Assembly: GCA_002706365.1 (NCBI GenBank)
Contig: PALM01000020.1
Coordinates: 1-64,000, forward strand
Source: Flavobacteriales bacterium
Lineage (GTDB): Bacteria; Bacteroidota; Bacteroidia; Flavobacteriales_E; Vicingaceae
Direction: 5' to 3'
Length of the DNA stretch: 64,000 nt
The position numbers and the translations under genes are program-made. Shown here piece by piece: positions 402 through 44,711 of this stretch (position 1 is its first letter; every line of letters starts with the position of its first letter). Under the pieces are notes generated by a model, which was not told the origin of the DNA, did no database searches, and saw only the letters and a program-made list of their open reading frames with translations.

Positions 402-1127
402 ATGAATTCAGCAGTGCACTCTATAACGAGAATCATTTTTCTAAGTCTATTAGCTATCAGCATCTCAATCACCTCTTGTAAGAAAGATGAAGAAGAGGTC
501 AATATCAATGAAGAGGATGCTGTTAGAATGATCAGTTCTGGATTGTCAGACAATAGTGATGCATTGGAAGAGCAAGCTGAGTCATCGGCACAATTAGACG
601 GTCAGCCAGCGGTAGCTTACGACTCATTATGCGATAATCTCTTGGCCTACAACAGGAGCTTTTCACTAACGAGAAACGGTCGCACCTTCGATTATAATGC
701 AAATGGCACTCGCGATGGAATTTGTATTAATGATTCCTTGATTGCATTCCGATACGTTTCTACTTTCACAACTAGGTATACGGGAACGAACTACTCTTCG
801 AATGGAACTGGTTCTAGGAATGGAAGATTGGATGAGATCCGCTCGGATTCGACTTTCTATTTGTGGACGGGTAACACAGAAAAGAACAGCAATGGAACGC
901 TAGAAACGAGGAATGAGACCTATCAGATCAATTCAATTCTCAAGTACAACAGCACACTCAAGATCGATAAGACCATCCGCAGAATTACAAGTGGAACAAC
1001 TACCTACAGTATTACTGGAGGAGGGGATAAGATCCGCGATTTCAGCTATTCCGGTACGATTACGTATTTAGGGAATCGTAAGGCAGAGGTGACAGTGAAT
1101 GGACAGGTGTTTACGGTATTTTATTAG
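402..1127 (+). CDS. Hypothetical lipoprotein, 241 aa
   Basis: I do not recognise this protein. From the ATG at 402 it has an SPII signal peptide with lipobox SITSC (Cys26), so it should be a lipid-anchored envelope protein. An acidic stretch follows (KKDEEE), then a Ser/Thr/Asn/Gly-rich region that looks like beta structure (repeated short strands such as TTTYSITGGG), ending FTVFY. An in-frame start at 312 exists, but it would put about 30 unrelated residues ahead of the signal peptide, so 402 is preferred. The gene stands alone. Its TAG stop is the first TAG of the heptad array that follows. Confidence 0.75.
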   Translation: MNSAVHSITRIIFLSLLAISISITSCKKDEEEVNINEEDAVRMISSGLSDNSDALEEQAESSAQLDGQPAVAYDSLCDNLLAYNRSFSLTRNGRTFDYNANGTRDGICINDSLIAFRYVSTFTTRYTGTNYSSNGTGSRNGRLDEIRSDSTFYLWTGNTEKNSNGTLETRNETYQINSILKYNSTLKIDKTIRRITSGTTTYSITGGGDKIRDFSYSGTITYLGNRKAEVTVNGQVFTVFY

Positions 1128-1157
1128 AACCTAGAACCTAGAACCTAGAATCTAGAC
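1125..1157. repeat. CTAG heptad array abutting a stop codon
   Basis: Tandem 7-bp units TAGAACC, TAGAACC, TAGAACC, TAGAATC, then TAGAC. CTAG falls at 1131, 1138, 1145 and 1152, exactly seven bases apart. The lipoprotein stop codon TAG (1125-1127) is in the same phase and forms the first unit. There is no hairpin with a T-run, so it is not a standard terminator. Confidence 0.85.
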
Positions 1158-1197
1158 GATTAATTGGATTACATTCAATTTAGTTGATAATAAATTA

Positions 1198-1235
1198 TAG
1201 TCTAGGCTCTAGATTCTAGAATCTAGACTCTCGAC
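1198..1235. repeat. CTAG heptad array upstream of ferritin
   Basis: A second CTAG array with CTAG at 1202, 1209, 1216 and 1223, units such as GTCTAGG, CTCTAGA, TTCTAGA, ATCTAGA. It lies directly upstream of the putative ferritin -7 box at 1240, over the place where the -33 element should be. Its centre (AGATTCTAGAATCT) is a perfect palindrome. Confidence 0.85.
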
Positions 1236-4430: not shown

Positions 4431-4485
4431 GAGTGCGCTAAAGTGCTCTAGAGTGCGCTAGAGTGCAACTAGAGTGCAGTTGAAT
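4428..4485. repeat. Array of 10-11 bp units (TAGAGTGCRC type)
   Basis: Units TAGGAGTGCGC, TAAAGTGCTC, TAGAGTGCGC, TAGAGTGCAAC, TAGAGTGCAG begin with the TAG stop codon of the S9 peptidase (4428-4430) and repeat at 10-11 bases. The AGTGC core is invariant. This is a different family from the 7-bp arrays but has the same position just after a stop codon. Confidence 0.8.
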
Positions 4486-5973: not shown

Positions 5974-6225
5974 ATTGCATAAGTTTTCTTAGAAGGCATT
6001 GCGACCATGGCTAAGCCATTGCGCTAGCTCGACAAAGTCGAGCTTCTGCGGTTAAGGAAATGCTTAATTTGATATGAAAATCTTTAGCTATGTCACAGAG
6101 TTTCACAGGGTCGCTTCGCTAGCTCAGAGGCACACAGAGCTGTAAGATTCTTCAAACACTTGTTTCCGATTTCTGATTTCTGATTTGAATTACCCTTACT
6201 CCTTGCTCCAAACTCAACCCTATAC
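5974..6225. other. Non-coding spacer with repeats between csp terminator and sulP
   Basis: No gene in this 252-base stretch. It holds two hairpins (6007-6044), a CACAGAG-type tract with words at about 6094-6141 (CACAGAG, CACAGGG, CACACAGAG), and heptad arrays from 6164 that run up to the sulP stop codon. Confidence 0.7.
6007..6044. repeat. Two perfect hairpins
   Basis: ATGGCT-A-AGCCAT at 6007-6019 and AGCTCGAC-AAA-GTCGAGCT at 6026-6044. The second has the same CTCGAC-three bases-GTCGAG plan as 174-192. No T-run follows, so neither is a standard terminator. Confidence 0.75.
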
Positions 6226-7755: not shown

Positions 7756-7863
7756 CTTGATTATGTTGGTTTTCTCGTTACAGCCCGATAAATCGGCCCA
7801 GTCGAAAACCGATTTGCATTAAAATATTATCAATGATATGCGCTTCTCGTTGATTCCATAAAC

Positions 7864-7921
7864 CTCGATACTATTCCGATTTCATCGGAATCACTCGGCA
7901 ACCAAATGGAATAGTATCGAG
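7864..7921. repeat. Nested inverted repeat (two competing hairpins)
   Basis: Outer arms of 14 bp: CTCGATACTATTCC (7864-7877) and GGAATAGTATCGAG (7908-7921), perfect. Inside, ATTCCGAT-TTC-ATCGGAAT (7873-7891) makes an 8-bp hairpin that shares ATTCC with the left outer arm, so the two stems exclude each other. It lies between the SulP gene start and the rplT terminator, upstream of sulP. Confidence 0.8.
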
Positions 7922-7936
7922 AGACGTGCAATACTT

Positions 7937-7971
7937 CTTACTCCATACTCCAAGCTCCGAACTCCAAAAAT
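7937..7971. repeat. CTCCAAA-type heptad array
   Basis: CTTACTC, CATACTC, CAAGCTC, CGAACTC, CAAAAAT: five 7-mers ending ACTC/GCTC, next to the rplT terminator. Same family as 6195-6222. Confidence 0.75.
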
Positions 7972-8000
7972 AAAAAAGACCCCATCTTTCGAAAGGGTCT
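7972..8000 (-). terminator. Terminator of the thrS-infC-rpmI-rplT operon
   Basis: On the minus strand AGACCC pairs with GGGTCT around a 12-base loop containing TTTCGAAAG, followed by a T-run. It lies 45 bases after the rplT stop, beyond the CTAG array. Confidence 0.85.
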
Positions 8001-8009
8001 CTAATTTGT

Positions 8010-8047
8010 CTAGATTCTAGACTCTAGATTCTAGGTTCTCTTTTCTA
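8010..8047. repeat. CTAG heptad array in phase with the rplT stop
   Basis: CTAG at 8010, 8017, 8024 and 8031, seven bases apart. On the minus strand the rplT stop TAG (8047-8045) is exactly two units (14 bases) upstream of the first array TAG. Units read TAGAATC, TAGAGTC, TAGAATC, TAGACAA on that strand. Located between rplT and its terminator, so it is probably transcribed. Confidence 0.85.
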
Positions 8048-37805: not shown

Positions 37806-37849
37806 TTTGCTAAGTTAAGAGTACTTAGAATACTTTATGGATTGAGAGC

Positions 37850-37884
37850 CTAGAGTCTAGAATCTAGAACCTAGAGTGAATCTT
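37850..37884. repeat. CTAG heptad array
   Basis: CTAG at 37850, 37857, 37864 and 37871, exactly seven apart, with units such as GTCTAGA, ATCTAGA, ACCTAGA. Lies between the start of the SRAP gene (37805) and the end of the next gene (37909). A degenerate continuation is visible towards 37884. Confidence 0.85.
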
Positions 37885-39701: not shown

Positions 39702-39750
39702 CTAGAATCTAAACTCTATCTAGGTTCTCAAGTCTAGGTTCTAGGCTCTT
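39702..39750. repeat. Degenerate CTAG heptad array
   Basis: CTAG at 39702, 39720, 39734 and 39741. Imperfect units CTAA (39709) and CTAT (39716) keep the 7-base phase; a 4-base shift divides the array in two blocks. Located just after the stop of the sensor phosphatase gene (39759) on the minus strand. Confidence 0.75.
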
Positions 39751-39758
39751 GGACCAAC

Positions 39759-41852
39759 TCAAAACCTCACTGTCATCACGCAGATATCATCGATCTGCTC
39801 CAGATCTCCTTTCCATTCATCCATCTCTTTGGCAATGGAATCTTGCCAGGCTTCGGGCTTTAGGTCGTTCAGCTCAAGGAGTAACTTCTTGAAAGTGCCG
39901 TATTTGTACTTCTTGCCTTTTGGGCCGCCAAATTGATCGGCATATCCATCCGAGAAGAGCACTACGGAATCTCCTTTCTCAAGCTTGATATTATGGCTTT
40001 GGAATGAGCTAATTTTCTCGTAAAAACCAATAGGTTGCTTATCTCCTTTGATCTCTTGTAGTTCTCCATTGCGGATTAGGTAGAGTGGATTATAGGCACC
40101 TGCAAATTGCAAATTCTCGCCTTTATCCCAAACACAGAGGGCTATATCCATTCCATCACTCACCTGTATTTTCTCAGAACTGAAGGTTTCCACTACAAGG
40201 TTCCTCAATTTGTCGAGTATTTCACCAGCATCAGTCAGATTGTACTCTTGTATGCATCTATTCAATGAATTATTACCCAATACACTCACCATGGCTCCTG
40301 GTACACCATGACCGGTGCAATCGGCCACAGCAAAATACACTCGATCTTCTGTTTCAACTAACCAATAAAAATCACCTGAGACAATATCCTTCGGCTTGAA
40401 GTATATTCCAGCTTCAGGCAGTGCTGAATTGATTTCTGTATCTGTAGGAAGAATAGCATCTTGCAGTCGCTTTGCATAATTGATACTGTTAATGATTTCC
40501 TTGTTTTTGGTACTCAGCTGCTCACTTTTCTCTTGGATCTCAGCGGTGCGGACTTTCACCTCATGCTCCAACTTTTCTGTCTGCTGGCTTTTTAACTCAT
40601 TGATCTCTTCCAAACGCTTGAAAGCTTCATCCTGTGCTTCGATCTTTTCCAATTGAGTTCTTCTATAGCGACCGGCCATCGCAATAGCGAGGAAGATAAG
40701 CTCTGTCCCCGAGCCAAATTTCAAAGCATTGGAGGCTAAGAACTCAGAATGGATCACATCCACATTGCAGAGAATAAAGAGAATCGAGCTAATCGTCAAT
40801 GAAATGAATGCCAACAGAATAGGCACTTCGATCTTCTTCTCCTTCCTGGCTTTTAGGTATATTCCCAATAGAATGTAGAGCACAGCAATGAACGACATCC
40901 CATTAGCCAAAGGGAAACCGATTGCATAAAGATCTCCTTCACTCATGCTGATTAGGAAGATCAGTCCAAAAATGAAAATGAAGAGGTTATAGATCTTGTT
41001 GTAGCGAGGAAAGTCGTACTTGAATTCGAGGAACTGTCGCACATATAAGAACATGCCGATCATTGAAAGCGTGGCAAAAAGCAGTATGGCGTGATTCCCC
41101 ATCCATGGATTAGATGGCCAGAAGTATTGATATGCCAATCCATCCAATGAAAATTGGAAAAGGGCCAAAGCAGTGATATAACTTACAAAGTAGAGGTAGA
41201 GTCGCTCCCCCAAAGCCAAGCCAAAAAGTGAAAAGAGTATGATTACCAGAATGAATATCCCATAGTAAAGTCCAAGGAAGAAATTCTCTACGCTGGTAAA
41301 TTGAGTGAAGGCATCAACCTCCCAGAGCTTTGCAGGAAGCTTGACGATCTCCCCATCACTGCCCGTCTTGATTATTAGGATCCTCTCAGACTTCGGAGGG
41401 AAGTTTAGAGGGAAAATGTACTTGCGATGAGAATACTCTCTTTGTTCAAAAGGAAGGTTATCTCCACTTTTATATTTTGCCTCAAATGTGCCGTTTGGTA
41501 GATAGACGTAGAGTTCAACGACATTGGTTAGTGGTCGGGCAAGCTCCAGATAATAGCTTATCTCCTTTCTGGAAGGGTTGCTAACTTTCAATTTCATCCA
41601 ATACATAGATGAAGTAAAATCCATGTAGGGAATCTCTGCCTTCGTTTCGATTAGTCTCACAGAGTCTAGCTCTTCATGGAGCATATCATCTGGAAATAGA
41701 ATCCTCTTTTCATCTTCAACGATCAGAGCCTTAGGAGCTAAATGACTGAATCCTTTGATCGTATCGATCCTAACATAATCTCCTTCTGCCAAAAGATAGC
41801 TTGGAAGTAAAAGGAGCGCAAACAAAAGGAGTTTGAAATGGTTGATTTTCAT
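39759..41852 (-). CDS. 7TMR-DISM / PP2C (SpoIIE-type) sensor phosphatase
   Basis: Membrane receptor phosphatase of 697 aa. Signal peptide (SYLLAEG), extracytoplasmic 7TMR-DISMED2-like domain (about 25-165, carbohydrate-binding-like fold), seven-helix DISM membrane part (about 185-390), a coiled coil (about 395-460), and a SpoIIE/PP2C phosphatase domain (about 465-697) with metal motifs GDFYWLVE, FAVADCTGHGVPGAMVS and VLFSDGYADQFGG. Such proteins dephosphorylate an anti-sigma-antagonist (STAS) or similar partner in response to an external signal. No anti-sigma or antagonist gene is near, so the output is unknown. Divergent from the vWA gene. Confidence 0.9.
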   Translation of the reverse strand: MKINHFKLLLFALLLLPSYLLAEGDYVRIDTIKGFSHLAPKALIVEDEKRILFPDDMLHEELDSVRLIETKAEIPYMDFTSSMYWMKLKVSNPSRKEISYYLELARPLTNVVELYVYLPNGTFEAKYKSGDNLPFEQREYSHRKYIFPLNFPPKSERILIIKTGSDGEIVKLPAKLWEVDAFTQFTSVENFFLGLYYGIFILVIILFSLFGLALGERLYLYFVSYITALALFQFSLDGLAYQYFWPSNPWMGNHAILLFATLSMIGMFLYVRQFLEFKYDFPRYNKIYNLFIFIFGLIFLISMSEGDLYAIGFPLANGMSFIAVLYILLGIYLKARKEKKIEVPILLAFISLTISSILFILCNVDVIHSEFLASNALKFGSGTELIFLAIAMAGRYRRTQLEKIEAQDEAFKRLEEINELKSQQTEKLEHEVKVRTAEIQEKSEQLSTKNKEIINSINYAKRLQDAILPTDTEINSALPEAGIYFKPKDIVSGDFYWLVETEDRVYFAVADCTGHGVPGAMVSVLGNNSLNRCIQEYNLTDAGEILDKLRNLVVETFSSEKIQVSDGMDIALCVWDKGENLQFAGAYNPLYLIRNGELQEIKGDKQPIGFYEKISSFQSHNIKLEKGDSVVLFSDGYADQFGGPKGKKYKYGTFKKLLLELNDLKPEAWQDSIAKEMDEWKGDLEQIDDICVMTVRF

Positions 41853-44580: not shown

Positions 44581-44711
44581 AGAGTTTAGATTTTAGAGAT
44601 TAGAGTTTAGACTTTCATTAAAATTCTAACATCTAAAAACCATTCAACATTCACACATTCAAAATTGATAATTAATCCGGCCTCCGGCTTCTGGCTTCAG
44701 GCATCCAATAT
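44581..44711. repeat. Three consecutive heptad arrays of different types
   Basis: AGAGTTT, AGATTTT, AGAGATT, AGAGTTT, AGACTTT at 44581-44615; CATTCAA, CATTCAC and relatives at 44641-44668; CCGGCCT, CCGGCTT, CTGGCTT, CAGGCAT, CCAATAT at 44677-44711. All have 7-base periods. The last array ends 8 bases before the msrA ATG at 44719. Confidence 0.75.

Follow-up and report, generated by a model that had tools for sequence, protein, structure and literature searches.

Arrays of heptanucleotides were described by Rehm et al. (2015; PMC4692102) in Xanthomonas campestris, X. axonopodis and Nostoc, with units of the type GGGAATC or GGGGA(C/T)T. These authors proposed that the arrays form G-quadruplexes, since four G-tracts are the minimum for such a structure. 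In the same year, MacGregor (2015; PMC4679880) reported TAACTGA direct repeats in Beggiatoaceae, Cyanobacteria and some Bacteroidetes, and suggested that they serve as translational regulators. This work also pointed out that heptads are the commonest repeats of 5-11 bp in most of the repeat-rich bacteria studied, and cited a suggestion by Mrazek, to which we refer in the form given there, that they originate from slippage. A physical precedent for the recognition of such units is offered by the ParB/omega protein of plasmid pSM19035 (PMC9499535), which binds as one ribbon-helix-helix (RHH) dimer per non-palindromic heptad, requires at least four contiguous heptads, and tolerates mixed orientations.

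The DNA considered here is a window of 64,000 nucleotides from a Flavobacteriales bacterium, whose draft assembly comprises 3.02 Mb and is 95.7% complete. A preliminary description of the window had located five CTAG arrays in it, and all five were found in place. In the first four the spacing between CTAGs is exactly 7 bp (CTAG starting at 1131/1138/1145/1152, 1202/1209/1216/1223, 8010/8017/8024/8031 and 37850/37857/37864/37871), and the fifth (39702/39720/39734/39741) is degenerate and contains a frame slip. Many heptads of other families, which that description did not mention, are present in the window and in the genome alike (Table 1). Sequence was sampled over 811 kb, consisting of the window plus 39 stretches, and genome-wide counts were obtained by pattern searches, with the reversed pattern in the same genome as the control. 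Densities in the 811-kb sample are inflated, because the first 13 stretches were picked for holding arrays, although positions are unaffected by this choice. Gene calls were heuristic, based on open reading frames and codon usage. A sister species of the same genus (G001; reciprocal best hits at 65% protein identity) was used for comparison.

Table 1. Heptad arrays and associated features of the window
Feature	Positions	Strand	Remarks
Element 1, AGAACCTAGAACCTAGAACCTAGAATCTAGAC	1126..1157	+	sense; abuts stop TAG 1125-1127 of ORF 312-1127
Element 2	1200..1231	-	inverted partner of element 1; 38 bp upstream of ferritin ATG 1270
AAATCAG/AAATCTG-family heptad array	6163..6185	-	convergent gap
GGAG-type heptads GGAGTTC GGAGCTT GGAGTAT GGAGTAA GAAGT	7932..7967	-	directly beyond rplT terminator
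rplT intrinsic terminator	7972..8001	-	downstream of element 3; conserved in the sister species
Element 3, AGAACCTAGAATCTAGAGTCTAGAATCTAGAC	8008..8039	-	between rplT stop (8045-8047) and intrinsic terminator
CTAG array AGAGCCTAGAGTCTAGAATCTAGAACCTAGA	37845..37875	+	between two minus-strand genes: SRAP peptidase, beta-propeller secreted protein
Degenerate CTAG array	39702..39747	-	downstream of 7TM/SpoIIE-phosphatase gene 39759-41852
TT-for-CT element AGAGTTTAGATTTTAGAGATTAGAGTTTAGAC	44581..44612	+	architecture matches CTAG element
GAAGCYR-family heptad array (GCTTCNG on +)	44676..44704	-	another heptad family

Each CTAG array is a copy of a 32-bp DNA element, (AGARYCT)4AGAC, that is oriented and dispersed over the genome. 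The pattern CTAGN3CTAGN3CTAG occurs 234 times in the genome versus 7 times for the reversed pattern and, in a 458-kb sample, two CTAGs were found at a spacing of 7 in 98 cases, whereas no other spacing below 40 was seen more than 10 times. When the purine-rich strands are aligned, the CTAG, TTAG and CCAG families have the same architecture, with the general form (AGANNNN)4AGAC: five AGA triplets, 7 bp apart, followed by a C. Exact copies of (AGAN4)4AGAC amount to 137 in the 3.02 Mb, compared to 18 for the reversed-pattern control. Among the 89 chains of at least four AGA triplets detected in the 811 kb, 68 consist of exactly five, and the last AGA is followed by C in 57, versus 9 of 359 at inner positions. 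Within the CTAG family (62 elements), the core shows 2.7% mismatches and the free dinucleotide consists of a purine (228/248) and then a pyrimidine (230/248). An unusually long member is found at L175 (1-90), where the contig starts inside an array of 13 AGA triplets with alternating AGAGCCT and AGAACCG units; this is probably an assembly break at the repeat.

The tetranucleotide itself had been assumed to be rare. It is indeed under-represented in genes, but only mildly (2.4 per kb; 941 seen versus 1202 expected), and it is in slight excess between genes (4.8 per kb; 296 versus 252 expected), both figures referring to 458 kb; the window contains 168 CTAGs, compared to 223 expected from shuffles. 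Given that the under-representation in genes is only mild, the rarity of CTAG was discarded as the key to the arrays. CTAG is not overwhelmingly common either, and the preference of the arrays for positions close to stop codons proved to be strong.

The period of 7 extends well beyond the CTAG unit. Over the 811 kb, 145 segments were found at lag 7, whereas none of the lags 4-6, 8-13 and 15 gave more than 12 (lag 14 being a multiple of 7). About a dozen heptad families could be distinguished (AGARYCT, AGANNTT, CCAGANN, AAATCWG, GAAGCYR, GAAATRT, GGAGTAT, AATTACG and others), the CTAG element being the most numerous, and they follow one grammar: about four units (exactly four in 59 of 108 arrays), a location mainly between genes and as a rule close to a stop codon, and a purine strand pointing outward. 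Predicted genes contain 14 of the 145 arrays of the 811-kb sample, and the rest are intergenic; the gaps holding an array amount to 43% for convergent, 22% for tandem and 11% for divergent genes. For oriented arrays located within 15 bp of a stop, the purine strand leads away from the gene in 40 cases and inward in 4 (p=1e-6 for the outward bias in the first sample). Arrays close to a start codon are also mostly directed outward (35 versus 13 inward), so that the orientation is set by the gap and not by the direction of transcription alone. The array at 37845..37875 breaks this rule relative to its nearest stop. When two arrays are neighbours in one gap, they are inverted in 17 of 27 pairs, as are elements 1 and 2, whose arrays are separated by 45 bp.

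Other repeats were encountered during the same survey. A separate 10/11-bp tandem repeat, GAGTGCGCTAAAGTGCAACTA, occupies positions 4431-4477 of the window and starts exactly at a gene stop, and similar runs of AGTGCGCTAGAGTGCAACTAGA follow stops elsewhere (L010, L175, L025). The recurrence of the phrases CTGCCGGCAGGCAGG, GAAGCTCAACGAGCGTAGAAGGAC and CTGCGGAAATCTGCGG in spacers (L017, 7316-7730, and many other gaps of the genome) suggests several further dispersed repeat families.

The relationship with stop codons had led to the idea of a fail-safe against read-through, based on the presence of stops in all six frames and on stop codons lying in phase with the array. The first of these observations holds, and it is a matter of arithmetic: a 7-bp period meeting a TAG-containing unit yields it for any such repeat of at least three units. 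The second holds as well, both in the window, where the stop of the ORF preceding element 1 is in register and rplT also ends in TAG (complement of 8045-8047; 14 nt in register with its array), and in the genome as a whole. Where a gene is closely followed by a CTAG array in sense orientation, its stop is TAG in 26 of 42 cases (62%), compared to 26% in other genes (p=4e-6), and 17 of these 26 stops are in phase. This phasing is explained, however, without any fail-safe, because either the element directly adjoins the stop codon, as T-AGA or as TA or TG with AGA next to it (at distance 1-2 in 9 cases), or the ORF runs into the element by 5-20 nt and ends at the first in-frame stop (11/46). If arrays were retained after genes for their six-frame stop codons, one would expect the surplus of stops that CTAG-bearing gene ends do show: an in-frame stop lies within 12 codons in 95% of them, versus 50% without an array, and stops are present in all three sense frames directly after the gene in 86% (n=22), versus 13.5%. 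Nevertheless, the same explanation predicts an enrichment in stops for the identically placed heptads of other families, and these are depleted instead (46.5% of units contain a stop, versus 66.7% of column-permuted units). Moreover, arrays upstream of start codons would be useless as stops, and stops need far less than 32 bp with a constrained core. The idea was therefore rejected on the basis of the permutation test, and we regard it as highly improbable.

The main rival of a binding array on DNA would act at the RNA level. In it, the array would be a 3' UTR element that sets the stability or termination of the mRNA end, either because an RNA-binding protein reads the purine heptads or by forming a stem-loop with the inverted pyrimidine arm. 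The strand bias at stops, where 46 elements are sense and 14 antisense, would fit such a role, as would the inverted neighbours mentioned above, the location of element 3 ahead of the rplT terminator, and the scarcity of canonical terminators at stops with arrays (3/43, versus 44/232 at stops without). The folding data speak against it: beyond stops, the median z-score of CTAG arrays is -2.0, not different from that of sequences with no array (p=0.20), and that of other heptads is -0.1, less structured than the background. Furthermore, as read from the sequence, the inverted pair in the window displays no compensation between the arms at variable positions, and the pyrimidine orientation is also favoured upstream of starts. 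A role for the array as an RNA hairpin or intrinsic terminator was rejected in view of the unremarkable z-scores and of a terminator scan that did not support it; at rplT, a conserved hairpin distinct from the array is the terminator, so the array does not have that role there. No Rfam match above the gathering score was found in the window. Altogether, an RNA-level role appears unlikely.

A different perspective was provided by the sister species. Its genome contains 11 matches to CTAGN3CTAGN3CTAG, compared to 234 in the genome under study, and its dominant heptads are others, but its arrays have the same modal number of units (four, in 23 of 53) and the same orientation (27 outward, 9 inward). 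In orthologous gaps, its best lag-7 score is higher where the first genome has an array (p=1.6e-4; 29 gaps, 7 with arrays), with no comparable pattern, judged by eye, at lags 6 and 8. The position of the arrays is thus kept while the units change, as from ARYCTAG to ARYCAAG and from RYCT to RYAA. For instance, the gap upstream of ferritin has arrays in both species, at the same position and in the same orientation, and the heptads of the sister species have diverged; one orthologous gene end reads GAATCTAGAATCTAGAACCTAG in one species and AAGAGCCAAGAACTAAGAGTCAAGAG in the other; and behind rplT, AGAACCTAGAATCTAGAGTCTAGAATCTAGAC corresponds to AGAACAAAGAATAAAGAG near the same place, both before the conserved terminator. 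The GGAGNNN array beyond the terminator falls mostly in an alignment gap with respect to the sister species. Also behind this terminator, at 7756-7930, lies an inverted repeat, CGATACTATTCC...GGAATAGTATCG, flanking CCGATTTCATCGGAAT, and blocks resembling it exist in a further gap (L170) and, in the sister species, behind rplT.

At larger distances, of 395 genomes belonging to the class, 3 contain CTAGARYCTAGARYCTAGA, and a wide spread of the CTAG unit was consequently dismissed. One of the three, a distant genome of another family (G332), has 98 matches, in longer arrays; in it, at L228 (479-567), a CTAG array shares its locus with a near-perfect telomere-like (GGGTTTT)n repeat of about 12 units. 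The rplT region of named Bacteroidota (80 loci) shows a milder excess of period 7, with other units, and in Flavobacterium it includes inverted TAAGCTT/GCTTAAA pairs.

These data also bear on two explanations based on the origin of the repeats. In one, the elements would be non-autonomous, REP/REPIN-like repeats that a Y1 transposase or a similar enzyme has copied to the ends of genes. The genome has three Y1_Tnp genes (one of them, at L163, G000:C10:4774-4980, carries an in-frame TAG), the elements have a discrete length and discrete ends, and the GGAG family past the rplT terminator seems to be present in this genome and absent in the sister species. Like the repeats associated with RAYT (Y1) transposases, they are short, dispersed, located near gene 3' ends and often in inverted pairs. 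Unlike these, they lack a palindromic REP unit, and no CTAG array was found within 1.5 kb of any of the three Y1_Tnp genes. In 24 exact, unextended copies the dinucleotides are mutually independent, 21 of the 24 strings being distinct with no excess of identical ones (p=0.18), and, apart from one duplicated pair of copies and the C at the end, the flanks are unrelated; subfamilies of the kind that copy-and-paste would leave are lacking. In addition, several orthologous sites are not empty but filled with arrays of a different unit. A RAYT/REPIN system was therefore rejected for want of both linkage and subfamilies, and mobility in general we judge improbable. A phage origin was likewise rejected, the exact 32-mer being absent from the viral contigs searched.

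In the other explanation, arrays would be neutral heptanucleotide microsatellites that arise when the polymerase slips and that are tolerated in intergenic DNA. The prevalence of heptads in repeat-rich bacteria (PMC4679880), the difference in units between species and the existence of a few long perfect arrays are all in line with it; one of the latter, CGGCTAT x8 (L015, 19568-19622), looks like a true recent microsatellite, unlike the degenerate four-unit arrays. Slippage does not account, however, for a fixed number of units, a defined 3' end, the presence of the same unit at 100 or more places, transitions confined to two positions, or an outward orientation and conserved position. Selection for unlike neighbouring units, which would oppose slippage, was looked for and not seen. 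Slippage is disfavoured, being quite improbable in our estimation, and both it and mobility explain less than a binding array.

The reading that we prefer, with a probability of about 0.38, is that the element is a multi-site array for a putative oligomerising DNA-binding protein. Such an array had been the second idea of the preliminary description and, though unproven, it offers the best fit: it is favoured because the number of units is fixed, the core is constrained, the dinucleotide is free but limited in class, placement is strand-symmetric, and units have changed in concert while keeping their position. According to this model, each element would be a run of four to five adjacent sites, in which every 7-bp module would be contacted by one subunit or dimer of a protein that oligomerises along the DNA and, once bound, may mark or insulate gene ends. 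By analogy, the closest physical precedent would be an RHH protein like ParB/omega of pSM19035; the genome has one match to RHH_1, a weak one that carries no weight as evidence. Against the model counts the existence of a dozen families with differing units, which would demand several proteins or a single lax one. A broader version, which we consider rather unlikely, would be a general gene-boundary system, in which gene ends across Bacteroidota, and perhaps also in Xanthomonas and Cyanobacteria, would be marked by lineage-specific proteins that read four to five 7-bp modules in a row, the module sequence shifting in concert throughout a genome while sites and geometry are kept.

The comparison with the systems described at the outset is instructive in this regard. 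The pSM19035 parS sites (WATCACW) resemble the elements in being made of non-palindromic 7-bp units, direct and inverted, and the number of contiguous heptads that ParB/omega requires is reached here; they differ in being plasmid centromere and promoter sites at few loci, while the present elements are dispersed. The TAACTGA repeats are also dispersed intergenic heptads that provide stops in several frames and include Bacteroidetes among their hosts, but they consist of a single unit in one orientation, mostly just upstream of starts, whereas here many units occur, mostly at stops. The likeness is closest with the heptads of Xanthomonas and Nostoc. These are likewise intergenic, with mostly four 7-bp units, have the purine strand near the 5' ORF whatever the direction of the genes, overlap stops, are rare in divergent gaps, often form inverted pairs, and occupy the same gene pairs in sister species with varying sequence. 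The arrays reported here differ in the many families per genome, in the AGA core, the fixed purine-pyrimidine dinucleotide and the defined AGAC end, and in that the main families lack G-tracts: no GGG is present in the CTAG, TTAG or AAATCAG units. As layout and unit number are the same without G-tracts, quadruplexes are not the general cause. Therefore, while heptads of the same layout in unrelated bacteria were earlier ascribed to G-quadruplexes or slippage, here units incapable of forming quadruplexes show that layout, their number is fixed, and the period is retained in orthologous gaps as the unit changes. This pattern points to a putative shared mechanism at gene ends, and the 32-bp element provides a concrete probe for finding the factor that reads it.
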